From assembly GCA_947502635.1 (NCBI GenBank), contig CANNAN010000001.1, forward strand, positions 310,001 to 374,000: 64,000 bases of DNA, read 5' to 3'. Source of the DNA: an uncultured Flavobacteriaceae bacterium. Lineage in GTDB: Bacteria; Bacteroidota; Bacteroidia; Flavobacteriales; Flavobacteriaceae. Both the position numbers and the translations under genes were made by a program. Shown here in pieces: positions 29,382 to 43,098 of this stretch. The notes below the pieces were generated by a model. The model saw only the letters and a program-made list of their open reading frames with translations, ran no database searches and was not told the origin of the DNA. Each line of letters starts with the position of its first letter. Position 1 is the stretch's first letter.

Positions 29382-29909
29382 CTAAAGGATAAAATTCAAA
29401 ATGAATTCAACTCTTTTTAAAGGAGACGTTTTTGAGAGCATGATAATATCAAACCCTCTTTTTTTATAATAATCTAAAAGGACCTTTTCTAATTTGAGGC
29501 AATAATCAAACTCTTGTAACCGCTGTCCGTCTTTGCAATAAATCTCGAACCAAGTTGGAGCAAAAAATACTTTTTTCTGATAGGTTTCATGATAAGGAAA
29601 TGTTTTTAAATAATTTGGAATTTCTTTTTTAGCAACGGTTAAATAAGCTTCTAAATCTAACAAAGAACGATCACAAACAAGTGCTTTATTATTTGATAAC
29701 GCTTCGTTTGTTCTTTTATAAACAAGATTGGTAAATCGATCGATATCTTGCCAAGGCATGCCATGTCGTCCATGCTTTTGTTCATCAATGATTACTTTTC
29801 TTGACACTTCGTCCATACAAGGAACGTTGTGCTTTAGAAGGTTTATCAAAGTTGTTTTTCCAGTACCTGGAGCTCCAGTAATAATGTATTTTTTTTGAAG
29901 ACTATCCAT
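29382..29909 (-). CDS. Small P-loop ATPase/kinase in the cobalamin cluster
   Basis: I place the start at the ATG at 29909 (MDSLQKKYIITG); the longer reading from 29933 overlaps cbiB further and adds only MLCFLCFI. The 175-residue protein has P-loop GAPGTGKTT (12-20) and VCDRSLLDLEAYL near 78-90, with a nucleoside-kinase-like layout (AAA_28 type). It is the last gene of the cobQ-cobC-cbiB unit and overlaps cbiB by 8 bp. Its function is unknown; adenosylcobinamide kinase or L-threonine kinase are both missing from the window and are reasonable candidates. Confidence 0.82.
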   Translation of the reverse strand: MDSLQKKYIITGAPGTGKTTLINLLKHNVPCMDEVSRKVIIDEQKHGRHGMPWQDIDRFTNLVYKRTNEALSNNKALVCDRSLLDLEAYLTVAKKEIPNYLKTFPYHETYQKKVFFAPTWFEIYCKDGQRLQEFDYCLKLEKVLLDYYKKRGFDIIMLSKTSPLKRVEFILNFIL

Positions 29910-30843
29910 TATAAAACACAAAAAACAGAGCAATAATTAATATACAAAACAAAGTACTTACAGCGTAATTAATTAGACTGACTGTTTTAATTTCTTCGTG
30001 TTTAATTTCACGATTATTGCTTCCAATAAATGGTTTTTCAACCAATTTACCATGATAATAATTGGGACCTCCAAATTGACAATTTAAAACATAAGCTAAT
30101 GCTGCTTCTGGATAGCCTGCATTTGGACTACTGTGCTTTTTTCCTTCTTTTAAAACAAAGAAAAAGCCTCCTAACTTAAACTTAACAATTAATATTAAAA
30201 AGGCAGTAATTCTAGCAGGAATGTAATTAACAACATCATCTACTTTTGCGGCAAATTTTCCGAACTGTATATAACGATCATTTTTGTATCCAATCATAGA
30301 ATCTAATGTGTTGATCATTTTATAAGTCATAACACCTGGTATTCCTAAAATTGCAAAATAAAATAGTGGGGCAATGACTCCGTCACTTAAGTTTTCTGAC
30401 ATGGTTTCAAAAGTAGCTATTCGTATTTGTTGCTTATCTAAACGGTTTGTTTCTCGTCCCACAATCCAAGATAAACGCTTGCGTCCAGCGTCTAAACCTT
30501 CCTTTTTTAGTGTTTTAAAAACGGCCTTTCCTTCTTGTATTAATGTTTTGTTTGCTAAACAATAAAATAACATGACTATTGAAAATAAGATACTAAGCAT
30601 CTTAAAACCGTTTGAATTTAGCCATTGTATCATTAATAATGGTACTACAAAAGCAAGGCTTATTAATACCATAGATAAGAGCATGCCTTTTAGTAATTTA
30701 CCGCTGCTTTTGTTTAGTTTTTTTTCACCAAAAGCAATTGCCTTTCCATAAAAAACAATAAGATGTGGCATCCATTTAGGATCGCCAAAAAACAGGTCTA
30801 AGCAAAAAGCACTAATTAATATGTAAATAGTATTTAAAGCCAT
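29902..30843 (-). CDS. cbiB: Adenosylcobinamide-phosphate synthase CbiB
   Basis: The 313-residue inner-membrane protein has several hydrophobic segments and the family motifs LDLFFGDPKWMPHLI (15-29), NTLDSMIGYK near 185-195, and SPNAGYPEAALAYVL near 240-255. It condenses (cobalt-)cobyric acid with aminopropanol phosphate. It overlaps the upstream aminotransferase by 10 bp and the downstream ATPase by 8 bp. CbiB and CobD (Pseudomonas naming) are the same family. Confidence 0.94.
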   Translation of the reverse strand: MALNTIYILISAFCLDLFFGDPKWMPHLIVFYGKAIAFGEKKLNKSSGKLLKGMLLSMVLISLAFVVPLLMIQWLNSNGFKMLSILFSIVMLFYCLANKTLIQEGKAVFKTLKKEGLDAGRKRLSWIVGRETNRLDKQQIRIATFETMSENLSDGVIAPLFYFAILGIPGVMTYKMINTLDSMIGYKNDRYIQFGKFAAKVDDVVNYIPARITAFLILIVKFKLGGFFFVLKEGKKHSSPNAGYPEAALAYVLNCQFGGPNYYHGKLVEKPFIGSNNREIKHEEIKTVSLINYAVSTLFCILIIALFFVFYNG

Positions 30844-31841
30844 TTTTTTAAGGCATGAATAAGTTTGTGATTTGCCTCTTTACTTTGGGTTGAGAGCCGA
30901 ATATGTTCGCCATTTAATCGAGAAAAATTTGTGGCATCTCTAATAAGTATTTGATGTTCTTTTATCAGGAATTCTTTTAATTCCTTGGCCGATTTATTTT
31001 CTAATTGAACTAAAAAATAAGGGGTATTACTTTCACAAACTTGTAGTCCTTCTAATTGAGCGAGTTGTTTTTTAAAAACCATAGCTTCTTTTAGTAATTC
31101 TGAAACGTTAAACTGAAGCGTTTCATAATTGTTAAAAATAAATTCACCTGCTTTTATTGCTAATGAATTCACACTCCAAGGCATTTTTAAACCTAAGATT
31201 TTGACAATGTTTGAAGCACTTGAAACAATGTAGCCTAAGCGTAAGCCAGGAATTGTAAATGTTTTGGTTAAAGAACGTACCACAATTAAATTACTGTAAT
31301 ACTTAGTGAGTGACATGATAGAATCGATGCTATCTGTAAATTCAATATATGCCTCGTCAATAACAAAAGTTGTATGCGGCTTTTGCTTAAATAAATGGTC
31401 TAATTCATTTTTTGAAAAGACAGACCCATCTGGGTTATTAGGGTTGCAAATAAATACAAGGTCTTCATCTGTGTTCGCTAGATCTGTCTGTGAAATTAAC
31501 TTGTAATTAAGTTTAAAAATTTTACAGGCATCTTCATATTCTGAAAAAGTAGGAGCTACAATAGCTGCTTTCTTATTAGAAAATAATTGAGCAATTAGGT
31601 AAAAGGCTTCGGTTGCTCCATTTGTAAATAAAAATTGGTTGTTACTTAGTTGAAAAACTTTAGCGGCTAATTCATTTAACTCATTAGCAATAGGAGAAGG
31701 ATAATTTTGAATTTGATTGATATTGCTTAAAATAGCCTCAATTAATTCTGAAGGACATCCTTTATAATAGACATTAGAGCTAAAGTTATATTTTATTTTC
31801 CCTTCTATTAAATGAAGGTCATCACCATGTCCGTTTAACAT
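30834..31841 (-). CDS. Threonine-phosphate decarboxylase-like aminotransferase
   Basis: This 335-residue class I/II PLP enzyme resembles histidinol-phosphate aminotransferase. The PLP lysine is Lys193 in VRSLTKTFTIPGLRLGY, with CNPNNPDGS (132-140), IDEAYIEF (161-168) and FTNGATEAF (72-80) also visible. Beside cobQ and cbiB it should be the L-threonine-O-3-phosphate decarboxylase that makes aminopropanol phosphate for the corrin side chain (CobD in Salmonella naming, CobC in Pseudomonas). The conflicting names are why no symbol is given. It overlaps cobQ by 7 bp. Confidence 0.9.
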   Translation of the reverse strand: MLNGHGDDLHLIEGKIKYNFSSNVYYKGCPSELIEAILSNINQIQNYPSPIANELNELAAKVFQLSNNQFLFTNGATEAFYLIAQLFSNKKAAIVAPTFSEYEDACKIFKLNYKLISQTDLANTDEDLVFICNPNNPDGSVFSKNELDHLFKQKPHTTFVIDEAYIEFTDSIDSIMSLTKYYSNLIVVRSLTKTFTIPGLRLGYIVSSASNIVKILGLKMPWSVNSLAIKAGEFIFNNYETLQFNVSELLKEAMVFKKQLAQLEGLQVCESNTPYFLVQLENKSAKELKEFLIKEHQILIRDATNFSRLNGEHIRLSTQSKEANHKLIHALKKWL

Positions 31842-33298
31842 TTTTCTATGCTATTTTTTAAGATGGTCGCCATATCTAAATTTTCATCAATCCAATTTGC
31901 CAATTTATCAAATTGTTCAGCTTTAAATGATTTGTAATTCCTGGCTTTAGCATCTGGATATTTTAATTGAAGTAATTCAGTAACAACTTCTTGATTATCA
32001 AAAATTCCGTGAAGATAGGTACCCCAACTTTTATTTCCATCAAAATAGCCTTCTTCTTTGCCATTTACATCATTTAAATGCTTGTTTTTAGGAACGTTTG
32101 TTTCTCCCATATGAATTTCATAGCCTTCACAGTTCTCCTTTAAATCTTTAAACTTAAACTGACGCTGCACGGTTTGTTTCGTTTTCGAAAGTGTTGTTTC
32201 AATATCAAAAATATTCAAGCCTTTTTCTAAAGTAGTATTACTTTCAACAGAAAAAGGATCAGCAATTGATTTCCCTAGCATTTGATAGCCACCGCAAATT
32301 CCAATAATAGAAATGTGTTTGTATCGTTCTTTAATTACAGCCGCCAATCCATCAGATTTTAAGGCGATTAAATCTTCAATTGTATTTTTTGTTCCTGGAA
32401 GAATAATGATGTCTGCTTTTTTTAATTCTTCTAGATCTCTCGTAAAATAAAGATTGATTAAAGGTTCTTGCTCTAAAGATTGAAAATCGGTGTAATTAGA
32501 CATGTAATGAAGTTTGACTACAGCAATATTTAATTTATTATCTCTAGAAGTTGTCGTTCTAAGATTTAGTGCAACCGAGTCTTCTTCTTCAATAATAATA
32601 TCTTTAGTATATGGCATTATGCCTAAAACAGGCAAGCCAGTAAGTTCTTCTAATTTTTTTTTACCTTCAATAAATAATGTAGTATCACCTCTAAATTTAT
32701 TAATAATAATCCCTTTTATAAGTTTTCGTTCCCAATCCTCGAGGAGTTCAATAGTACCATAAACACTACCAAAAACACCACCTTTATCAATGTCTGCTAC
32801 CAAATAAACGCAGGCATTAGCTGCTTTTGCCATGCGCATATTTACAATGTCTCTATGTTTTAGGTTGAGTTCGCTAATGCTTCCTGCTCCTTCCATTACA
32901 ATAGGATTGTATTTTGTTGCCAATTGATGAAACGCTTTTTTAGCTTCTTCGAAAAGGTGTTTTTTATTTTCTCCTAAAAAATATTCTTTAGCCGTTTGAT
33001 TGCCAATAGGTTTACCATGTAAGACAATTTGTGATTTGTTTACTGAGGAAGGTTTTAATAAAATAGGATTCATTTCTACCGTTGGAGGAATCCCACATGC
33101 CTCAGCTTGTACAGCTTGTGCTCTTCCAATTTCAAGATTATCTGGTGTTGAGAAACTATTTAAGGACATATTTTGTGCCTTAAAAGGAGCAGGTTGATGT
33201 CCATTATGTTTAAGCCATCTACAAATCCCTGTTGTTATCCAGCTTTTTCCGACATCTGAACCAGTTCCAACTAGCATTATAGGGTGTAGATTCTCCAT
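31835..33298 (-). CDS. cobQ: Cobyric acid synthase
   Basis: This 487-residue amidotransferase has P-loop VGTGSDVGKSW (10-20), the conserved PFKAQNMSLNS (38-48) and AQAVQAEACG (60-69), and a class I glutaminase domain with nucleophile Cys335 (IIGICGGYQMLG) and the histidine-bearing SWGTYLHGIFDN near the end. It amidates side chains b, d, e and g of adenosylcobyrinate a,c-diamide. It is the first gene of the second cobalamin transcription unit; an exact TAnnTTTG box lies just upstream. CbiP is the alternative name. Confidence 0.95.
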   Translation of the reverse strand: MENLHPIMLVGTGSDVGKSWITTGICRWLKHNGHQPAPFKAQNMSLNSFSTPDNLEIGRAQAVQAEACGIPPTVEMNPILLKPSSVNKSQIVLHGKPIGNQTAKEYFLGENKKHLFEEAKKAFHQLATKYNPIVMEGAGSISELNLKHRDIVNMRMAKAANACVYLVADIDKGGVFGSVYGTIELLEDWERKLIKGIIINKFRGDTTLFIEGKKKLEELTGLPVLGIMPYTKDIIIEEEDSVALNLRTTTSRDNKLNIAVVKLHYMSNYTDFQSLEQEPLINLYFTRDLEELKKADIIILPGTKNTIEDLIALKSDGLAAVIKERYKHISIIGICGGYQMLGKSIADPFSVESNTTLEKGLNIFDIETTLSKTKQTVQRQFKFKDLKENCEGYEIHMGETNVPKNKHLNDVNGKEEGYFDGNKSWGTYLHGIFDNQEVVTELLQLKYPDAKARNYKSFKAEQFDKLANWIDENLDMATILKNSIEKC

Positions 33299-33504: not shown

Positions 33505-34410
33505 GTGAACGGTAATATAATGGGTGCCAATTATGCTTCGAGAGCCATGGCAAACTCGTTGGACCTGTTTGAAGAATTAGCACAATTTACTAGTGTTTAT
33601 GCTGCGATTCAAAAAGAATTTATAGATTCATTAAGTAAACTTAATGGTAAGACTACTGTGAATGATGCAGAATATGCTATTGCTCTAGGTGCGGTAAAAT
33701 CCTTCTCAGAAATTTGTAATCGTGTAGCTGAAGCTTGGAATGTATGGCGAAGTATAAATCTTGATGTGGAAGCCTGTGAATGATGCAGAATATGCTATTG
33801 CTCTAGGTGCGGTAAAATCTTTCTCAGAAATTTGTAATCGTGTAGCTGAAGCTTGGAATGTATGGCGAAGTATAAATCTTGATGTGGAAGCTGGTAGAAT
33901 GGCTACGGAAACGTCGTCAGATTGTATCTTTACCATTTCGGAAGAACCTGCATCACTAACAGATAATGAATTGAGATTAACTATTGAATTGCCTGATGTA
34001 CTAACAGCTCAAAACTATATTCGTTTAAGCTCGTTCCGACTTCCAGCATTGCTTAATGATAGTGATACTTTTCAGCTTCCATTAGTAGAAATTGAAAGTG
34101 AAAAGTATAAAGCAGTACTTATACCAGATCTATTGTATTACCAGTATTGTTATTACCTATAACAAGCATACCACTTCCAGGAGCTTATGAGCCAGAAGGA
34201 GGATCATGTCCCATAGATTATAGTGATGATAATACTTTTGTGTGTAAATTAACAGCGGCAATTGAGCAGTGGTTTAGCCGAAATAAACCCAGTGTTAATC
34301 AGGCTAAATTCCATTTTGATATGGCTTTGTTTTCTGAATTGAATGAAACACAATTACCGCTAATTCGTTTGCGAAAAGTTTATTTAGACGAAAAGGATGT
34401 GATTTGGTAG
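33505..34410 (+). pseudogene. Broken gene of unknown function with an internal tandem duplication
   Basis: Three overlapping open frames reconstruct one protein. Frame one starts at the GTG at 33505 (an ATG follows at 33520) and runs to 33783. A direct duplication of 118 bp (33657-33774 and 33775-33892) is not a multiple of three and throws the frame out. The second copy continues in another frame to 34162. A further shift near 34130-34150 is needed to reach LPITSIPLPGAYEPEGG, which runs to the stop at 34410. The reconstructed product, about 260 residues, has an N-terminal helical part (SEICNRVAEAWNVWRS) and a beta-rich C-terminal part. I recognise no family. The two copies of the duplication are almost identical, so the damage is recent. 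Confidence 0.8.
33657..33892 (+). repeat. 118-bp tandem direct duplication
   Basis: Copy one spans 33657-33774 and copy two 33775-33892. Only about one internal base differs (TCCTTC versus TCTTTC) apart from the junction. The unit length is not divisible by three. Confidence 0.92.
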
Positions 34411-34810: not shown

Positions 34811-35530
34811 TTGGAGTCCCTTATTGAAAACATCTTATTTAATTATTCCTATATTGCTTTATACGGTTTGACTTTTGGGTACTTTGCATTTCTATATTTT
34901 GGAATAGGATTTTTATTTCTATCTGTTTGTAAGATGTTAGAAAGCAGGTATATACTTAATAAAATTAAAGACAGAGAAGTTTCGAAAAAGCAGATCAGTT
35001 TTGAAATAAAACACTCCATAAAATCGATAGTTGTTTTCGGGTTTTCAATTATACCAATCATATATTTAATAAGAGTTAATGTCATAGAATTATTACCAAA
35101 TACATGGCTTAATATCCTAATAGGGATTGTTTTACTCACGCTATGGAATGAAGTCCATTTTTATGTGGTGCATAGAATAATGCATCAAAAATTCATGATG
35201 AAACATGTACATTTTATTCATCATAAATCTAGAATTTCAACAGTGTATTCTGTTTACAGTTTTCATTGGTTGGAAGCACTTTTATTAAGTACCATACCAT
35301 TAACAATTGTTCCGTTTATTCCTTTTTCTATAGTTGCAGTCTTTATATACCCATTTGTGAGTATTCTATTAAATTTTGCAGGCCATTGTAATTACCGATT
35401 TGGAAATGGAAAAGGCAATAGCTGGAGGCTTTTTGGAACCTATCATAATGAACACCATAGCAGAGGCAGAAAAAACTATGGTTTTTCGCTTAACATCTTG
35501 GATAAATTATTTTCCAAGCATAATAAATAA
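34811..35530 (+). CDS. Membrane fatty-acid hydroxylase / sterol-desaturase superfamily protein
   Basis: This 239-residue integral membrane protein has about five hydrophobic segments and the eight-histidine diiron pattern of the family: HRIMH (121-125), HVHFIHH (132-138), His192 (GHCNYR) and YHNEHH (211-216). Relatives hydroxylate or desaturate lipids with oxygen and two irons. TTG at 34811 is the only usable start; an in-frame TAA lies just before it. It is the first gene of a set with a ketosynthase-diiron fusion 3 bp downstream, so its substrate may be the acyl product of that enzyme. Family call is secure; substrate is unknown. Confidence 0.9.
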   Translation: MESLIENILFNYSYIALYGLTFGYFAFLYFGIGFLFLSVCKMLESRYILNKIKDREVSKKQISFEIKHSIKSIVVFGFSIIPIIYLIRVNVIELLPNTWLNILIGIVLLTLWNEVHFYVVHRIMHQKFMMKHVHFIHHKSRISTVYSVYSFHWLEALLLSTIPLTIVPFIPFSIVAVFIYPFVSILLNFAGHCNYRFGNGKGNSWRLFGTYHNEHHSRGRKNYGFSLNILDKLFSKHNK

Positions 35531-35533
35531 TAA

Positions 35534-37384
35534 ATGAACGAAGTATATATAACAAGCTCAGGTACATTTTTACCAAACAAAGCTGTTTCTAATAAAGAAA
35601 TGGAAGATTTTTTAGGTCGTATAAGCGGTAAGGAGAGTCGTGCTAAAGAGCGTGTATTAAAACAAAATGGTATTAAAACGCGTTATTATGCACTAAACCA
35701 AAAACAAGAAACAACACATTTAAATGCGGAGTTGGCTGTAAATGCGGTAAACGATGCGTTGCAAAAAAGTAATCTAAGAAGTACTGACGTAGAATTGCTA
35801 TGTACTGGAACAACACAAGGGGATTTACCCATACCAGGTTTTGCTAGTATGGTGCATGCAGGGTTGGACTTTAATAGATGTGAAGTTGCTAGTTTTCAAA
35901 GTGTGTGTGCTAGTGGAATAATGGCATTAAAAAATGCCTACACTCAAATTAAAAGTGATGAAAAAGAAAATGCAGTTTGCGTAGGTAGTGAATTAGCGAG
36001 TAGAATGTTTAAAGCATCGCGTTTTGAAGCCCAAGGAGTCGAATCATTGCCATTTGATGCCGAATTTTTAAGGTGGATGTTATCTGATGGCGCTGGTGCA
36101 TTTGTCCTTCAGAATAAGAAAAATGAAAACGGTATTTCTTTAAAAATTGATTGGATTGATATAAAATCTCATGCTAATGAATTTCCTGTTTGTATGTATA
36201 CAGGGAAAACGGATAATAAAAATGAAGAAGAATTAACATGGTTGGATTATCCAAGTTACGAAGAAGCTTCTAAAGCTGGGGCAATTAATCTAAAACAGGA
36301 CACAAGACTGTTAGATAAGGTGATAAAAACAGGAGTGGCACACTATTTTGAGTTGATTGACCAAGGAAAAATTAACAAAGATAGTGTTGATTGGCTATGT
36401 TGTCATTATTCTTCCGAGGTATTTAAGGAACCGATAAAAGAATTAATGTTAAAAGGAGGTGGCGAGATTGCCGATGAGAAATGGTTTAGCAACCTCACCT
36501 CAAAAGGAAATACAGGTGCAGCATCTATTTTTATAATGTTAGATGAATTGATGCATACAGGGAAATTAAAGCTGGATGATAAAATACTTTGTATGGTACC
36601 AGAAAGTGGTCGTTTTGTGACGTCCTATATGCAGCTTACTGTAACAGGAAATACAAAAACAAACACCAAGAGTTATCCTGTAAGAGAAATTGAATCGCCT
36701 GAGTTGATTGTAAATAAAAATGAAACTTCTGAATGGTTAATAAGAAACCTTGCTCAAATCTGGATTGATTTTGAAACGGAATTACTTAAAGTCCCTATTG
36801 TTGCTAAAATTCATGATGGTAATTTGAGTATTTCAGATTATAAATTATTATTAATAGATCTTAGGCAGCAAGTAATAGATGGCTCACAATGGATCTCTCG
36901 TGCAGCTTCAAATATAGATATTGATCTATTTGAATTACGCTCGGCATTTATAAAGCATACCGCAACAGAGCATAAAGACTATCAAATGCTAGAGAAAAAT
37001 TTTGAGGCTTTAGGTGAAGATATAGACACGATAAGAACGGGTGAAAAGAATATTGGTACAGTTTCTTTAACATCTTTTATGTTTCAACAGGCAAGTAAAC
37101 CCAACCCGATCGATTTGTTAGGTTCTATGTTTATTATAGAAGGTATTGGTAAACGATTAGCGGGTTATTGGGGAGAAATGATTAAAGATCAATTAAATTT
37201 GAAAAATAGTCAAGTATCCTTTTTTACTTATCATGGTGTTGCTGATGAAAACCATTTTCATAACTTGGAAGAGGCACTAAACCATCCGAAGATGAATATG
37301 GAAGTCGCAAAAAAGATTGTTAAAACAGCTAAAACTACAGCGAAATTGTACAAAATGCAGTTAGAAGAATTAGGAAATTATTAA
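35534..37384 (+). CDS. Beta-ketoacyl-ACP synthase III fused to a haem-oxygenase-like diiron domain
   Basis: The 616-residue protein has two parts. Residues 1-375 form a thiolase-fold KAS III with catalytic triad Cys125 (FQSVCASG), His291 (CCHYSS) and Asn326 (SKGNTGAA). Residues about 385-616 form an all-helical iron-containing redox domain (Haem_oxygenas_2 / HDO type) with candidate ligands His475, Glu479 and His480 (HTATEH), Glu536 (IIEGIG), and His567, Asp571 and His574 (HGVADENH). KAS III condenses an acyl-CoA with malonyl-ACP; HDO enzymes such as UndA oxidise or cleave acyl or amino-acid substrates. The fusion suggests a chain made and then oxidised on one protein. It is followed after 8 bp by a gene of unknown function. 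Confidence 0.9.
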   Translation: MNEVYITSSGTFLPNKAVSNKEMEDFLGRISGKESRAKERVLKQNGIKTRYYALNQKQETTHLNAELAVNAVNDALQKSNLRSTDVELLCTGTTQGDLPIPGFASMVHAGLDFNRCEVASFQSVCASGIMALKNAYTQIKSDEKENAVCVGSELASRMFKASRFEAQGVESLPFDAEFLRWMLSDGAGAFVLQNKKNENGISLKIDWIDIKSHANEFPVCMYTGKTDNKNEEELTWLDYPSYEEASKAGAINLKQDTRLLDKVIKTGVAHYFELIDQGKINKDSVDWLCCHYSSEVFKEPIKELMLKGGGEIADEKWFSNLTSKGNTGAASIFIMLDELMHTGKLKLDDKILCMVPESGRFVTSYMQLTVTGNTKTNTKSYPVREIESPELIVNKNETSEWLIRNLAQIWIDFETELLKVPIVAKIHDGNLSISDYKLLLIDLRQQVIDGSQWISRAASNIDIDLFELRSAFIKHTATEHKDYQMLEKNFEALGEDIDTIRTGEKNIGTVSLTSFMFQQASKPNPIDLLGSMFIIEGIGKRLAGYWGEMIKDQLNLKNSQVSFFTYHGVADENHFHNLEEALNHPKMNMEVAKKIVKTAKTTAKLYKMQLEELGNY

Positions 37385-37392
37385 ATTGAATT

Positions 37393-38289
37393 ATGATAGA
37401 CGAAAACATGGACATATCAGCGCACGACGAAAGGGATCCCAATCCCTGGTTGGCGTTATTTTTAGATGATAGTATTCCGATTAACCAATTGACAAAGTTG
37501 GCGTTGATGAAAGATAACGCATCGAAATCGGCGAAGTATTTGCTGCCAATAATTCAATTCTGGTCTAAGTTTACCATGTTTTTTATTCATGTATTCAAGT
37601 TTTTCTTTCCTAAACTCATTAACTCTTCAAAGGTCTTGCATCGTATTTTAGCGTGGGGACTTAGAAAATTTGTTAGTCCAGATGCTAACCTGCTTATATT
37701 TAGACACTTTCATATTGGTACAGAAATTTTGCAGTTTATAGGAGGTAATATTCCGAATGTAGAAGTAGAAGGGAACCCTTTAAAACCTAAAAATTTTGAA
37801 GATGTAAAAGATGATTTGTTTTTAAATCATGATTTAAATTTATACAATTTTGTTATTCGTTTAAATAGTAAGTTGAAAGAAAAAAACATAACGATAAGCC
37901 CTCCCGAAAAAATCAATTTAGACATGATTACAGAAGATCAATTTGACCATATAGATTTCCCTAATAAATGGACAAATTTTTTGGATTTACGTTCAGCCAT
38001 TGAACTTTTTACACCTTTTTATCAATTATTTTTAACATCTAATGATTTTGTAAGAGCTTCAAATTCATTGCAATTAGATGAAACAGTTGCGATTTATACT
38101 TCACAAATTTTGGGGACTCCTGGTCATTTAGGATTAGTTAATAATAAACACCCTATGGTGCCTGTTACCACTTACAGTGCTGCTTACAGGCTAGTTTTAC
38201 ATGGCTTAGCAGCTGAAACACTACATGAAGTATTAGTAAAAATGAAGCTTAACAAAAACAGTGATGGTGTTGTAACTCCAAAAAAATAA
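37393..38289 (+). CDS. Conserved-looking protein of unknown function in the ketosynthase-diiron set
   Basis: This 298-residue protein begins 8 bp after the ketosynthase-diiron gene and is almost certainly co-transcribed. It has no signal peptide. A hydrophobic amphipathic stretch lies at about 50-75 (FWSKFTMFFIHVFKFFF), suggesting membrane association. Motifs that look conserved include DPNPWLALFLDDS (15-27), LIFRHFHIGTEILQFIGGN (about 100-118) and the C-terminal SAAYRLVLHGLAAETLHE. Several His and Glu residues in these helices could bind metal, but no recognised motif is present. I recall a Bacteroidota-specific DUF in such neighbourhoods but cannot confirm its name. Confidence 0.8.
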   Translation: MIDENMDISAHDERDPNPWLALFLDDSIPINQLTKLALMKDNASKSAKYLLPIIQFWSKFTMFFIHVFKFFFPKLINSSKVLHRILAWGLRKFVSPDANLLIFRHFHIGTEILQFIGGNIPNVEVEGNPLKPKNFEDVKDDLFLNHDLNLYNFVIRLNSKLKEKNITISPPEKINLDMITEDQFDHIDFPNKWTNFLDLRSAIELFTPFYQLFLTSNDFVRASNSLQLDETVAIYTSQILGTPGHLGLVNNKHPMVPVTTYSAAYRLVLHGLAAETLHEVLVKMKLNKNSDGVVTPKK

Positions 38290-38511: not shown

Positions 38512-39087
38512 ATGAATACCAAACCTGTAATAACATACTTTTCCAATTTCTGGAAACTTAATCAAAAAGAGATTGATTTTTTAGTTGAAAGAGCAGACCT
38601 AAGGTTGCTGAAAAAAAAGGCCTTTGTTTTAGAAAAAGGACAAGTATGTAATCACTTTATATTCGTAGTTAAAGGTTGCCTCAAAATGTATAAAGTAGAT
38701 GATAAAGGAAGGTTTCATAATCTTCAGTTTGCTTCAGAAAATAATTGGATTTCAGACTATGGAAGTTTCTATAATGATGAACCAAGCGAGCTTTTTATAG
38801 AAAGTTTAGAGCCTACCGAAATAATTCAGTTCGAAAAAAACAATGTTTTTGAATTATATGATAATCACGTTGTATTTGATCGGAATTTTAGAATTATTAT
38901 TGAAAATGCTTTTATTGAGCAGCAAAAAAGAATACTCCAAACAATAAGTTCTACAGCAGAAGAAAGGTACTTGTATTTTATTAAAAAATATCCGCATTTA
39001 TTAAATAGAATATCTCATGTTCAAATAGCATCATATATAGGCGTTACACCCGAATTTTTAAGTCAAGTAAGAAAAAAAATGATTTGA
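38512..39087 (+). CDS. Crp/Fnr-family transcriptional regulator
   Basis: The 191-residue protein has a cyclic-nucleotide-binding-like beta-roll (about 20-120; LEKGQVCNHFIFVVKGCLKMY at 39-59). A C-terminal helix-turn-helix follows (about 150-190; ISHVQIASYIGVTPEFLSQV). The helix-turn-helix is short, as in many Bacteroidota members that likely sense something other than cAMP. It lies 222 bp after the unknown gene of the ketosynthase set and may control it, but flanking direct repeats also suggest independent duplication. The ATG at 38512 gives the full domain. Confidence 0.9.
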   Translation: MNTKPVITYFSNFWKLNQKEIDFLVERADLRLLKKKAFVLEKGQVCNHFIFVVKGCLKMYKVDDKGRFHNLQFASENNWISDYGSFYNDEPSELFIESLEPTEIIQFEKNNVFELYDNHVVFDRNFRIIIENAFIEQQKRILQTISSTAEERYLYFIKKYPHLLNRISHVQIASYIGVTPEFLSQVRKKMI

Positions 39088-39104
39088 ATTGGTGGCTATT
39101 TCTA

Positions 39105-39165
39105 AAACGATCTTATAAGTAGCGTTGTAAAGGTTGATCTAAATTTGGGTTTTATGAATTTGAAA
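39105..39165 (+). repeat. Imperfect direct repeat flanking the regulator, copy 2
   Basis: AAACGATCTTATAAG, then TGATCTAAATTTGGG and TATGAATTTGAAAT, aligns with 38391-38450. No gene follows this copy. Confidence 0.6.
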
Positions 39166-39825
39166 TTATGATTATTATGAAACAACGATTAATAATTGTA
39201 GAGCTAGGTGTGCTCGACTTGAAACTGCTAACAGAATTTTACGAAAATAAATTTAATTGAAAAAAAATAATAATTCCATTACTTTTTTTCGATTAAATAG
39301 CATTCTTTATAACATTATACCCAAGTGAAAATTAGCAGAAGAATCATGTGTTAGCTCGGAAGGTAGTGGGTTTAATAGCTTTTTGTTAGCTATAATGCCA
39401 GAAAAATAAAAGAGGTAAATACAGTACTTAAAAAACAAGAAAGTAAAGATGTTAATTTTTATTTTGACTAATAAATTCATGGCTCTCAACTTAAAAATGA
39501 GTTTGGCTAGATAAAACTTATCAGATACGAACCATTCACAATAAAGTTTTACAACGATTACTTTCTTTCATCGTGGGAATTGATAGATAATATCTCAATT
39601 CATACCTATAATCAATATCCAAAGTGTTTAAAAAGTTTAAGGCTTGGTAATCCTTATTTTAATTTTGTAAGAAAAATATAATTAAAAAAGAGAGTAAATT
39701 TTTAATTATTGGGTAATTATTCTACTATTTTGAATTTTTTGTCTACTAATTATATCTTTTAAATACGTTGTTTTGGAATAAGCAAACTTTTAATTCTAAA
39801 ATTAGTTTAAAAGGTATTCATTTTT
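39166..39825. other. Intergenic region, AT-rich
   Basis: About 660 bp with no convincing gene. Weak short open frames read like random AT-rich sequence. This may be the eroded remains of a second regulator, since it follows repeat copy 2, but no homologous coding was detected by eye. Confidence 0.45.
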
Positions 39826-40407
39826 ATGAAAAAAGAAGTACTAATTATAAATCACGATAGGTCTCTGGTAGAAAGTCTTAAAGAAGATGAAATATGGGCG
39901 TTTGAAGCGTTGTTTAATCAATATAACAGAAGATTATACGGTTTTGCCTTGGGCTATTTAAAATCTCCAGTTGAGGCAGAAGAATTGGTTCAGGATGTTT
40001 TTTCAAAAATTTGGGAAAAGAGGCGTTTGTTAAAACCAGAGCGTAGTTTTAAGCACTACATTTTTACTATTGCATTTAATTTAATTAAAAAAATCTTTAT
40101 AAAAAGAAGTAGAATTAGAACTTATTTAGATTCAAAGGAAAAAATAATTGATTTTGATCAATCAACTTCGAATCAAATTGATTATAATTTTATGATGGAG
40201 AGAATCATGATTTTGGTAGCTAAAATGCCAACACGCAGAAGAGAAACATTTGTGAAAAGTCGTTTTAAAGATCTTTCCGTTAAAGAAATAGCAAAAGAAA
40301 TGAATATCAGCCCTAAAACCGTAGAGAATCAAATCACTTCAGCTCTAAAGTTTATTAAAGCCAATTGGGAATTTGATGAATCCAGAGATAACATATATAT
40401 AACATAA
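39826..40407 (+). CDS. ECF RNA polymerase sigma factor (sigma-70 family)
   Basis: The 193-residue protein has sigma region 2 (about 22-95; FEALFNQYNRRLYGFALG and EAEELVQDVFSKIWEKR) and region 4 (about 130-180; MPTRRRETFVKSRF and KEIAKEMNISPKTVENQI). This is the FecI-like Bacteroidota type that is often paired with a FecR anti-sigma factor. No FecR gene follows; 780 bp of non-coding sequence separates it from the GH97 gene. It may control the downstream polysaccharide locus, but this is inferred from position only. Confidence 0.93.
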   Translation: MKKEVLIINHDRSLVESLKEDEIWAFEALFNQYNRRLYGFALGYLKSPVEAEELVQDVFSKIWEKRRLLKPERSFKHYIFTIAFNLIKKIFIKRSRIRTYLDSKEKIIDFDQSTSNQIDYNFMMERIMILVAKMPTRRRETFVKSRFKDLSVKEIAKEMNISPKTVENQITSALKFIKANWEFDESRDNIYIT

Positions 40408-40766
40408 TTACATTTAGTTAAAATAGAGAAGCTATATACAGTAACGCTATTACTATATGTATGTTTTCCTTTGAAAGGTGCTTTTACTTATAATACTAGT
40501 CTAAAATACATTTCAGAATACATTTAAATAGACCTTTTAACTAATATTTATCTGCTAAGGAACAAAATAGGGTACTATAAAGAACATTTTTTATGATGTT
40601 AAAGAATTAAAAGTTTCACAACTTTGTGTTTCTATTATCTCACTAAATCTAAATCGTTTAGAAGTCACTTTTTATTAATCATTTAATGGTGGCTTATTAT
40701 TATTATTATTATTTATAAAATTAATAATAAAATAGATTTTGAGTTAGTCATATTTGTCAGTTTAGT

Positions 40767-40805
40767 CACCTCTATTCAAAAATTATTGGATAGAGGTGTT
40801 TTTTT
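40767..40805 (+). terminator. Rho-independent terminator
   Basis: CACCTCTATTCA pairs with TGGATAGAGGTG (one mismatch) around AAAATTAT, followed by seven T residues. It lies 360 bp after the sigma factor stop, so that transcript would have a long 3' leader or end earlier. Confidence 0.75.
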
Positions 40806-40945
40806 GATATATAATAATTGTGTTAAACATGTAAAGCGCTTAATAATGCTCTTGTTTAGTTGGTTTTAAGGTTTATAAATTAATTCTGAACGAATTATAC
40901 GGTAAAAGGAAATATTTGTATCCCGAAATTCCAGATTATAGATAC

Positions 40946-40953
40946 TATATTTG
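40946..40953 (+). promoter_or_regulatory. Possible -7 box for the GH97 gene
   Basis: TATATTTG matches TAnnTTTG exactly, implying a leader of about 230 nt before the ATG at 41188. The nearest upstream TTTG (40915-40918) is further than the usual -33 spacing. Confidence 0.3.
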
Positions 40954-41187
40954 AAATTATATTGCTAGCTTCTTAATTATGTTACAAGTAGAAAATAAAA
41001 ACAAATAATAAAAATATCGTCCAATACATCCTAATCATTAAAATGATAAGCTTTACTGATTTCATTTGATGATGGAATAGAAATTGATATTTAGACTCTT
41101 TTTATTTGAAAAACTATTAATTAAGATAATAAGTGATTGTGTAGTTTAATTCAGAATTTATATTATAATTAATTTTTTTACCACAAA

Positions 41188-43098
41188 ATGAATAAAACGT
41201 ATCTAAATCTCAAAAATAAAAACCTTTACCGTTTAATTTTTTTGATGTTATTATCAATAATAACTATTTCTTACTCAGCGAAGAAAAAGAGTGTAGAAGT
41301 AAATAGCCCAGATGGACATTTTAAATTATTGTTCAAGATTGATGAAAAACTAGGGGCGTCTTACAGTGTAACATATAAAGGAAAAGAGGTTATTGTTCCA
41401 TCTGGTTTAGGAATTGGAGTTATAGATACAACACAAAATATTCAAATAGATTTTGTGAAAACAACAAAAACGGATAATGTCTGGGTGCCAGCTTATGGAG
41501 AGAAGAATCAATATCCAGATAAATATCAAGAGTCGTTTATTGCCTTGAAAGGAGCTGGAGCCAATTTTAACCTTAGGATTAGAGCATACAATGAAGGTGT
41601 TGCATTTAGATATGAATTTCCTAAATACAGAGGTAAAATACAGAGAGAAAAAACAGAGTTTTCATTACCGCCATATGCTAATGTATGGGCTTCAAAAATG
41701 GCTCAAAGTGAAATTGAAAAAATTAAAGTATCGGAAATAGATACCATAATTGAAAGACCTTTATTAATTGAGCTTAAAGACTCCCTATTTGCTGCCATTG
41801 GAGAAGCTGGTTTAGTAGATTATTCTCGGATGAAATTTAAGTCAAAGCCAGATAAACCAGGAACATTAATTTCAGAATTAGATAGCTTGGTACAACTTAG
41901 CAATTCTGTAAATAAAACGCCTTGGCGTTTTATAATGGCAGGTGAACGTCCAGCACAATTATTAGAAAATAATTATTTACTTCTTAATTTAAATGAGGAA
42001 AATAAGATTGAGGATACTTCCTGGATTAGACCAGGGAAAATTATTAGAGAATCAACACTTACAACCAAAGGAGGTATAGCTTGTGTGGATTTTGCGGCAA
42101 AACATAACTTACAATTTATCGAATTCGATGCTGGGTGGTATGGTAATGAATATGATGAGACTTCAGATGCTACCACTATAACTATAGATCCGAATCGGTC
42201 TAATGGTCCATTGGATCTATTGGGAGTTATAGAATATGCCAAGAGTAAAAATATAGGAGTTATTCTTTATGTGAATAGAAGATCAATGGAAAAACAACTT
42301 GACGATGTATTACCTCTGCTAAGCTCTTGGAGAGTTAGTGGACTTAAATACGGTTTTGTAAATGTAGGCTCTCAAGAATGGACAAGCTGGTTGCACGATG
42401 CCGTTAGAAAAGCGGCAGATCATAAATTGATGGTCGATATTCATGATGAATACCGTCCAACAGGCTATTCTAGAACCTATCCAAATTTAATGACTCAGGA
42501 AGGTATTAGAGGCGATGAAGAGGCACCGAAAAATTCTATGGTATTGAATACCCTTTTTACTAGAATGATTGCAGGAGCAGGCGATCAGACTAATTGTTAT
42601 TTTGCAACAAGAGTAGAAGAAAGAATGAGTTCGCATGCTTCACAATTAGCAAAAGCGGTTTGTATTTATAGTCCATGGCAATTTTTATATTGGTATGACA
42701 GACCAGAAGGGTCAGACGCAGAAGGACCAGGTGCAGGGGGTACCAAATCATTTATCCAGGAAGTTCCTGAGTTGGCATTTTATGATGCACTTCCCACAGT
42801 TTGGGACGATACTAAGATCATTGATGGTTACCCAGGAGAATATGGTGTGGTGGTAAGGCGCAGCGGCAATGATTGGTTTTTAGGAGCTTTAACAGGAGTA
42901 AAAGGACGAAAACTAGATATTGCTTTAGATTTTCTGGATCAAGGAAAAACTTATGAAGCCACTATTTATTCAGATGATGAAAATAGCCAAACAATAACTA
43001 AAGTAAAAATAGATAAGAGAAATGTTAAGTTTTCCGATACAATAAATTATGAGGTATTAAAGCAAAACGGGCTTGCCATACATTTTCGAGCTTTATAG
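41188..43098 (+). CDS. Glycoside hydrolase family 97 enzyme
   Basis: This 636-residue secreted protein has a signal peptide (about 1-30). The GH97 N-terminal beta-sandwich follows (about 35-285; SPDGHFKLLFK and NEGVAFRYEFP), then a catalytic barrel (about 290-560; FIEFDAGWYG at 310-319 and IHDEYRPTGYSRTYPN at 418-433) and a C-terminal beta domain. GH97 enzymes are alpha-glucosidases or alpha-galactosidases, inverting or retaining. The KYGFVNVG stretch (387-394) has Gly where I recall retaining members having a nucleophilic Asp, but I cannot settle the mechanism. YSPWQFLYWYDRP resembles the non-SusB branch. It is the first enzyme of the polysaccharide region. Confidence 0.93.
   Translation: MNKTYLNLKNKNLYRLIFLMLLSIITISYSAKKKSVEVNSPDGHFKLLFKIDEKLGASYSVTYKGKEVIVPSGLGIGVIDTTQNIQIDFVKTTKTDNVWVPAYGEKNQYPDKYQESFIALKGAGANFNLRIRAYNEGVAFRYEFPKYRGKIQREKTEFSLPPYANVWASKMAQSEIEKIKVSEIDTIIERPLLIELKDSLFAAIGEAGLVDYSRMKFKSKPDKPGTLISELDSLVQLSNSVNKTPWRFIMAGERPAQLLENNYLLLNLNEENKIEDTSWIRPGKIIRESTLTTKGGIACVDFAAKHNLQFIEFDAGWYGNEYDETSDATTITIDPNRSNGPLDLLGVIEYAKSKNIGVILYVNRRSMEKQLDDVLPLLSSWRVSGLKYGFVNVGSQEWTSWLHDAVRKAADHKLMVDIHDEYRPTGYSRTYPNLMTQEGIRGDEEAPKNSMVLNTLFTRMIAGAGDQTNCYFATRVEERMSSHASQLAKAVCIYSPWQFLYWYDRPEGSDAEGPGAGGTKSFIQEVPELAFYDALPTVWDDTKIIDGYPGEYGVVVRRSGNDWFLGALTGVKGRKLDIALDFLDQGKTYEATIYSDDENSQTITKVKIDKRNVKFSDTINYEVLKQNGLAIHFRAL

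Follow-up and report, generated by a model that had tools for sequence, protein, structure and literature searches.

A ketosynthase-oxidase fusion with a constant DUF6999 partner in a flavobacterial genome: a conserved cassette and a proposed variant of the StlD/DarB kind of pathway

The closest described relatives of the system considered here are the DarAB pathway, which provides the resorcinol part of flexirubins, and StlD of stilbene synthesis in Photorhabdus. According to one report, heterologous expression of darA together with darB yields a dialkylresorcinol (PMC3992019), and another gives the DarB products as 4-carboxy-2,5-dialkylcyclohexane-1,3-diones (PMC5515871). The haem-oxygenase-like dimetal oxidases (HDOs), which include UndA, CADD and SznF, mostly bind their metals through three His and three carboxylates that sit on three core helices, and in some cases a Glu of an auxiliary helix is added to these (PMC13108848). 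Here we describe a gene cassette that joins a ketosynthase (KS) domain to an HDO domain in a single protein. It lies in a 64,000-nucleotide stretch (hereafter the window; contig CANNAN010000001.1, positions 310,001 to 374,000) from the 5.44 Mb genome of an uncultured Flavobacteriaceae bacterium and consists of a membrane fatty-acid hydroxylase (FAH), the KS-HDO fusion and a protein of the family DUF6999 (Table 1). We conclude that the cassette is real, conserved and uncharacterised and that it looks like a variant of the StlD/DarB kind of pathway. We put at roughly 50% the probability that its product is a two-chain fatty-acid compound with a closed ring, formed by a version of the cyclohexanedione/dialkylresorcinol route that depends on O2 and does without DarA; this reading rests on gene order, the fusion itself, family relationships, residue conservation and the failure to find DarA, from which we infer the reactions, the metals and the product.

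The original prediction, made from the letters of the window, described three tightly adjacent genes, and the three plus-strand open reading frames (ORFs) are indeed separated by gaps of only 3 and 8 bp. It took the N-terminal half of the fusion for a KAS III with a complete triad of Cys125, His291 and Asn326. The fusion matches PF08541 (KAS III C-terminal domain, 41.9 bits), and the three catalytic residues align with those of StlD and are identical in all 56 aligned sequences (the window and 55 relatives chosen out of 75 full-length fusions). While the assignment to the condensing enzymes with their triad stands, the domain is not a generic KAS III. In the NCBIfam ranking the StlD/DarB profile (NF005293) comes first with 430.1 bits, followed by DarB (393.4), KAS III (110.9) and, in fourth place, FabH (93.2). 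The closest PDB sequence match is StlD (E 9.7e-81, compared with 6.4e-14 for the best match other than StlD), and StlD is also the top Foldseek match of the predicted fusion model (entry 5gk2, described as the H302A mutant; TM score by target 0.91; model confidence pLDDT 89.4, pTM 0.67). In a tree of 44 ketosynthases, 24 fusions form one group (support 89/84) and 13 DarB sequences another (90/81), both with moderate support and with the cassette KS outside the DarB group, and FabH is set apart at 100/100. Profile ranking, PDB match and tree together rule out a generic KAS III/FabH identity; by these comparisons the KS is a relative of StlD and DarB, enzymes that condense and cyclise two acyl chains. 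Its nearest neighbours in the tree outside the fusions are an unfused Pseudoalteromonas KS (L130) and then one on a Streptomyces plasmid (L131), these two and L046 having long branches and an unsure placement. The plasmid in question (NZ_CP108315.1, mobilizable) carries a KS 43.6% identical to that of the cassette among genes for acyl carrier protein (ACP), a DarA-like protein, an FAD monooxygenase, KAS II and a cytochrome P450, and looks like an undescribed relative.

The family of the KS bears directly on what the cassette may make. An acyl chain that is condensed and then oxidised or shortened had been proposed originally; the condensation agrees with the KS, but because the KS resembles StlD/DarB the expected first step is the joining and cyclisation of two acyl chains. 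A linear-chain route close to the earlier idea would leave the beta-ketoacyl product of the KS uncyclised and have the HDO cleave or decarboxylate it in the manner of UndA, giving a ketone, an alkene or a shortened acid, perhaps hydroxylated by the membrane enzyme. Such a route would be in keeping with the membrane fatty-acid hydroxylase and desaturase neighbours and with UndA, a fatty acid decarboxylase, being itself an HDO (PMC13108848), but the StlD/DarB profile ranks first with generic KAS III far below it, and StlD is the best structural match, so we regard it as unlikely.

The C-terminal half of the fusion was predicted to be a haem-oxygenase-like domain with candidate diiron-type ligands, and the profile match and residue conservation bear this out. 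The family Haem_oxygenas_2 (PF14518) scores 28.1 bits on the whole fusion, just below its cut-off of 28.9, and 29.0 bits on the domain alone, and it matches 7 of 7 HDO domains scanned at E <= 0.01. Fusion residues 397-611 are all helical in the predicted model. Nine residues, namely E414, H475, E479, D482, E487, E536, H567, D571 and H574, are the same in every one of the 56 aligned sequences and recur in a separate HDO protein of Pseudoalteromonas that shares 36% identity. HxxxDxxH is a spacing typical of an HDO core helix; H567-x3-D571-x2-H574 and E536 fit two of the HDO core helices. His87 of the TenA-like structure 3dde, on the first core helix, aligns with Tyr (46/56) or Phe (10/56) here, and H475, E479 and D482 lie near this position. 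Judged from these residues, the domain likely holds a complete, possibly rearranged dimetal ligand set.

The linkage among the cassette genes was assessed in a scan of genome contigs with the HDO alignment, which yielded 403 relatives; the counts of loci cover the best 80 of these, so that rarer architectures are under-sampled. In 78 of the 80 loci a single frame encodes both KS and HDO, and in the two exceptions (L087 and L116) the HDO match lies at the start of a contig. Where 2 kb or more of sequence lies downstream (72 loci), DUF6999 always follows the fusion on the same strand; where there is less it does so at five of eight loci, the contigs of the other three (L110, L113 and L129) ending 784, 458 and 1 bases past the fusion. 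The predicted conservation of a three-gene unit thus applies to the fusion and DUF6999 but not to the membrane hydroxylase, which is an optional accessory: of the 73 loci with at least 900 bp of upstream sequence, 55 have it within 300 bp of the fusion on that side. On a Pseudoalteromonas plasmid (pTHAF3_a) KS, HDO and DUF6999 each have a gene to themselves, with 2 bp at one junction and an overlap at the other, and from this arrangement together with the variable accessories we take these three to be the constant core. In the plasmid search a single record, with separate genes, covered at least 80% of the query.

In whole genomes, DUF6999 was found in 5 of 395 of the Bacteroidota, four times beside the fusion and once (genome G219) beside an unfused related KS. 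The HDO profile matches six of the 395: in four the match is strong and lies in the fusion, and in two (E 3e-4 and 4e-4) it is weak and lies in another protein. In the Paenibacillus family, DUF6999 is present in nine of 104 genomes and adjoins KS and HDO in one frame in all nine. The cassette is patchy: of 60 genomes related to that of the window, 5 have a full-length fusion, and these include two of the 12 that belong to the same genus. Among named organisms, Flavivirga jejuensis has the nearest cassette (protein identity 90% for FAH, 93% for KS, 95% for HDO and 94% for DUF6999), and the ratios of nonsynonymous to synonymous substitution (dN/dS) against it, 0.098, 0.061, 0.035 and 0.050 in the same order, indicate that all parts are under purifying selection. 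The low ratios and a gene order that recurs in several phyla show that the cassette is not a chance arrangement. In the loci examined we encountered none of the findings that the original prediction had named as counting against it, namely homologues standing apart, unconserved diiron residues or a missing KAS triad. Five loci (L050, L062, L064, L097 and L126) are probably the same records as genomes G401, G182, G407, G450 and G280, and the two sets of counts are kept separate; absence in G407 and G450 is weak evidence because these genomes are 80% and 83% complete.

One strain of Flagellimonas algicola has two cassettes (L086 and L101) on two contigs and two DUF6999 matches in its genome. Four unannotated phage records (OR849884.1, OR844991.1, OR847395.1 and OR846615.1) contain KAS III-like sequence that is possibly host DNA. 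Carriage of the cassette by phages was rejected, these records matching at 21-22% identity in the KS part only; a scan of viral contigs with the HDO part gave no match. In the literature searched, which included few subscription papers and no bioRxiv preprints, the cassette was not recognised under ketosynthase with HDO or 'iron-containing redox enzyme', and DUF6999 was not mentioned.

The third protein, originally a partner of unknown function, lies beside the fusion as described and can now be placed in a named Pfam family, DUF6999 (PF22523, full-length match, 397.6 bits against a cut-off of 27). Its model is all helical (pLDDT 83.3, pTM 0.84) and has no PDB structure match at E <= 0.001, and a comparison of its sequence with the PDB up to E 10 likewise gave no match. 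We aligned it with 54 relatives chosen out of 75 DUF6999 proteins. R104, H105, H146, D147, D198, D229, H270 and E275 are kept in nine diverse members, including a Pseudoalteromonas protein of 27% identity and a fragment of 25% identity from G219, which suggests a catalytic, perhaps metal-binding, site. Two other identities were rejected: a ferritin-like diiron oxygenase of the AurF/CmlI kind (CmlI E 0.64, AurF E 3.8, TM 0.11-0.15; none of 61 genomes of the phylum gave a match to the AurF family) and a duplicate of the HDO (hhalign probability 0.3%).

The comparison with DarAB depends on DarA, which was named by position only, as the gene adjoining DarB in L048 with a flavodoxin resemblance below cut-off. 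Relatives of this candidate adjoin all 13 DarB genes tested (one of them in the query's own genome and one cut by a contig end), and one of 29-30% identity adjoins the Streptomyces plasmid KS. A tblastn search of the 81 cassette loci L050-L130 gave no match to the candidate. Among whole genomes it is present in 4 of 4 DarB controls, and it was not found in 13 of 17 cassette genomes, including that of the window. A plain DarAB locus is ruled out by the missing DarA candidate, the DarB score and the grouping in the tree. The KS family, the constant HDO and DUF6999 partners and the missing DarA candidate at cassette loci led us to the DarA-independent reading, in which the HDO, DUF6999 or both would take the place of DarA on the same kind of ring.

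Another division of labour would have DUF6999, not the HDO, replace DarA in aromatising or oxidising the ring, with the HDO adding a later oxidation. G219, in which a KS gene neighbours a DUF6999-like gene and which is not among the HDO profile matches listed, lends itself to this scheme, as does the persistence of the eight DUF6999 residues across nine members. The G219 gene is weak, however, with 25% identity, a match of 32.2 bits that carries a stop and an open part of 21.5 bits against the cut-off of 27, and DUF6999 has no recognisable fold or cofactor; we consider this division improbable.

The accessory genes touch on the nature of the product. The membrane hydroxylase, which flanks the fusion in the window as originally predicted, matches PF04116 (FA_hydroxylase) with 80.7 bits (cut-off 31), and H121, H125, H134, H137, H138, H192, H212, H215 and H216 are invariant in 29 aligned sequences. 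Among the 18 loci without an FAH close upstream, L069 has one just past the 300-bp limit, L117 has one 3.8 kb off, and in L123 a P450 (190.4 bits) ends 14 bp before the fusion; in the remaining 15 neither an FAH nor a desaturase adjoins the fusion. In 11 of 80 loci the gene immediately after the fusion is fatty-acid desaturase-like (PF00487, 74.6 bits in L059, the sole one scanned), and DUF6999 comes after it in nine, the contigs of the other two ending. Taken together, the FAH, desaturase and P450 neighbours would fit a lipid product. An OlsE-type identity of the FAH was rejected. In two loci of the Paenibacillus family (L148 and L150) the fusion and DUF6999 occupy one strand and an FAH-like frame (169.9 and 141.6 bits) the other, and the DUF6999 gene of L054 (8702-9597) and the FAH gene of L071 (6119-6839) each extend over two reading frames, through decay or sequencing error.

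These neighbours also bear on whether the HDO domain is biosynthetic at all. DtpC of Acinetobacter baumannii, which has an HDO domain, limits peroxide in dried cells (PMC13232832), and the HDO of the cassette could likewise serve in protection against oxygen species. Its fusion to a KS with an invariant triad, the constant DUF6999 and the lipid-modifying neighbours make such a role very improbable.

In the cyclised, DarA-independent route that we favour, the KS would condense two thioesters, one beta-ketoacyl and the other probably 2-enoyl, and close a 1,3-cyclohexanedione ring, as expected from its family. The product would pass to the tethered HDO domain, which may oxidise the ring with O2 and its dimetal site by oxidative decarboxylation, aromatisation or ring hydroxylation. 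DUF6999, with its invariant His, Asp, Glu and Arg, might perform a further step on the same product, and the membrane hydroxylase, desaturase or P450, where present, would probably decorate the chains.

Several observations weigh against this route. The KS remains under the cut-offs of its two best profiles (430.1 against 450 bits for StlD/DarB and 393.4 against 550 for DarB), which makes cyclisation by the KS an extrapolation. The arrangement of ligands in the first HDO helix looks non-standard, so that metal binding by the domain is no more than putative. The cassette contains no ACP or enoyl-supply gene. Four of the 17 cassette genomes have a DarA candidate elsewhere, which in G182 and G407 adjoins a separate DarB. 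Finally, the related KS of G219 stands beside its DUF6999-like gene with no HDO detected, so that the HDO is perhaps not the substitute for DarA, or not the sole one.

A bolder proposal, which we hold only tentatively and think doubtful as a whole, is a widespread, undescribed pathway. In it a ring-forming KS would pass its product on to the tethered dimetal oxidase, with its unusual ligand arrangement, and DUF6999 would be another metalloenzyme, of a new structural type, that works on that ring. Together the two would replace DarA, and the outcome would be oxidised two-chain ring lipids of a new class, made in Bacteroidota, Paenibacillus and other phyla. Should the favoured route hold, a dimetal HDO would act on a fatty-acid or polyketide ring product while covalently linked to the condensing enzyme, DUF6999 would receive its first function, and many Bacteroidota and some Paenibacillus would be predicted to contain such a lipid. 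With its core of two genes, the cassette is open to testing by expression in E. coli.

Table 1. Features of the cassette, in window coordinates
Feature	Position	Strand	Remarks
Membrane fatty-acid hydroxylase (FAH)	34811..35530	+	239 aa, TTG start; PF04116; optional accessory
KS-HDO fusion ORF	35534-37384	+	616 aa
StlD/DarB-like ketosynthase (KS) domain	35534..36658	+	fusion residues about 1-375
Haem-oxygenase-like dimetal oxidase (HDO) domain	36692..37384	+	fusion residues about 387-616
DUF6999, helical, constant partner	37393..38289	+	298 aa; PF22523

On the 5' side of the cassette a 118-bp unit occurs twice in tandem with a 99% match (33656-33891), and the ORF at this repeat (33761-34162) has no Pfam match and looks like a fragment. 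Further away, on the minus strand and thus opposite to the cassette, CobD/CbiB-like, aminotransferase and CobQ-like genes (29902-33298) probably serve cobalamin synthesis. Genes for a Crp-like regulator, an extracytoplasmic function (ECF) sigma factor and a GH97 glycoside hydrolase lie 3' of the cassette on the plus strand (38512-43098). None of the three has relatives around the other cassettes examined (20-kb stretches L040-L044 and the 5.7-kb L045), and the Crp-like gene (38512-39087), considered as a cassette member, was left out on that ground.

Compared with the known systems, the cassette shares with DarAB a related KS, which is 43-46% identical to DarB of the same genus over the KS domain and has the conserved Cys, His and Asn. 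It differs from DarAB in its KS falling outside the DarB group, in the lack of a DarA candidate at 81 of 81 cassette loci and of an aryl-polyene cluster around the cassette in the window, and in having the HDO fusion and the DUF6999 partner. The FAH shares its PF04116 match and histidine clusters with OlsE and other members of the FA_hydroxylase superfamily, but falls far below the OlsE equivalog cut-off (35.2 against 475 bits). StlD is the best match of the KS in PDB sequence and in fold, with aligned catalytic residues, but the StlD chain stops where the HDO of the cassette starts, and the partner genes differ. With UndA, CADD, SznF and other HDOs the domain shares the PF14518 match and His and carboxylate residues on three helices; it differs from 3dde in the Tyr or Phe at the His87 position, and from the other HDOs in being covalently joined to a ketosynthase.

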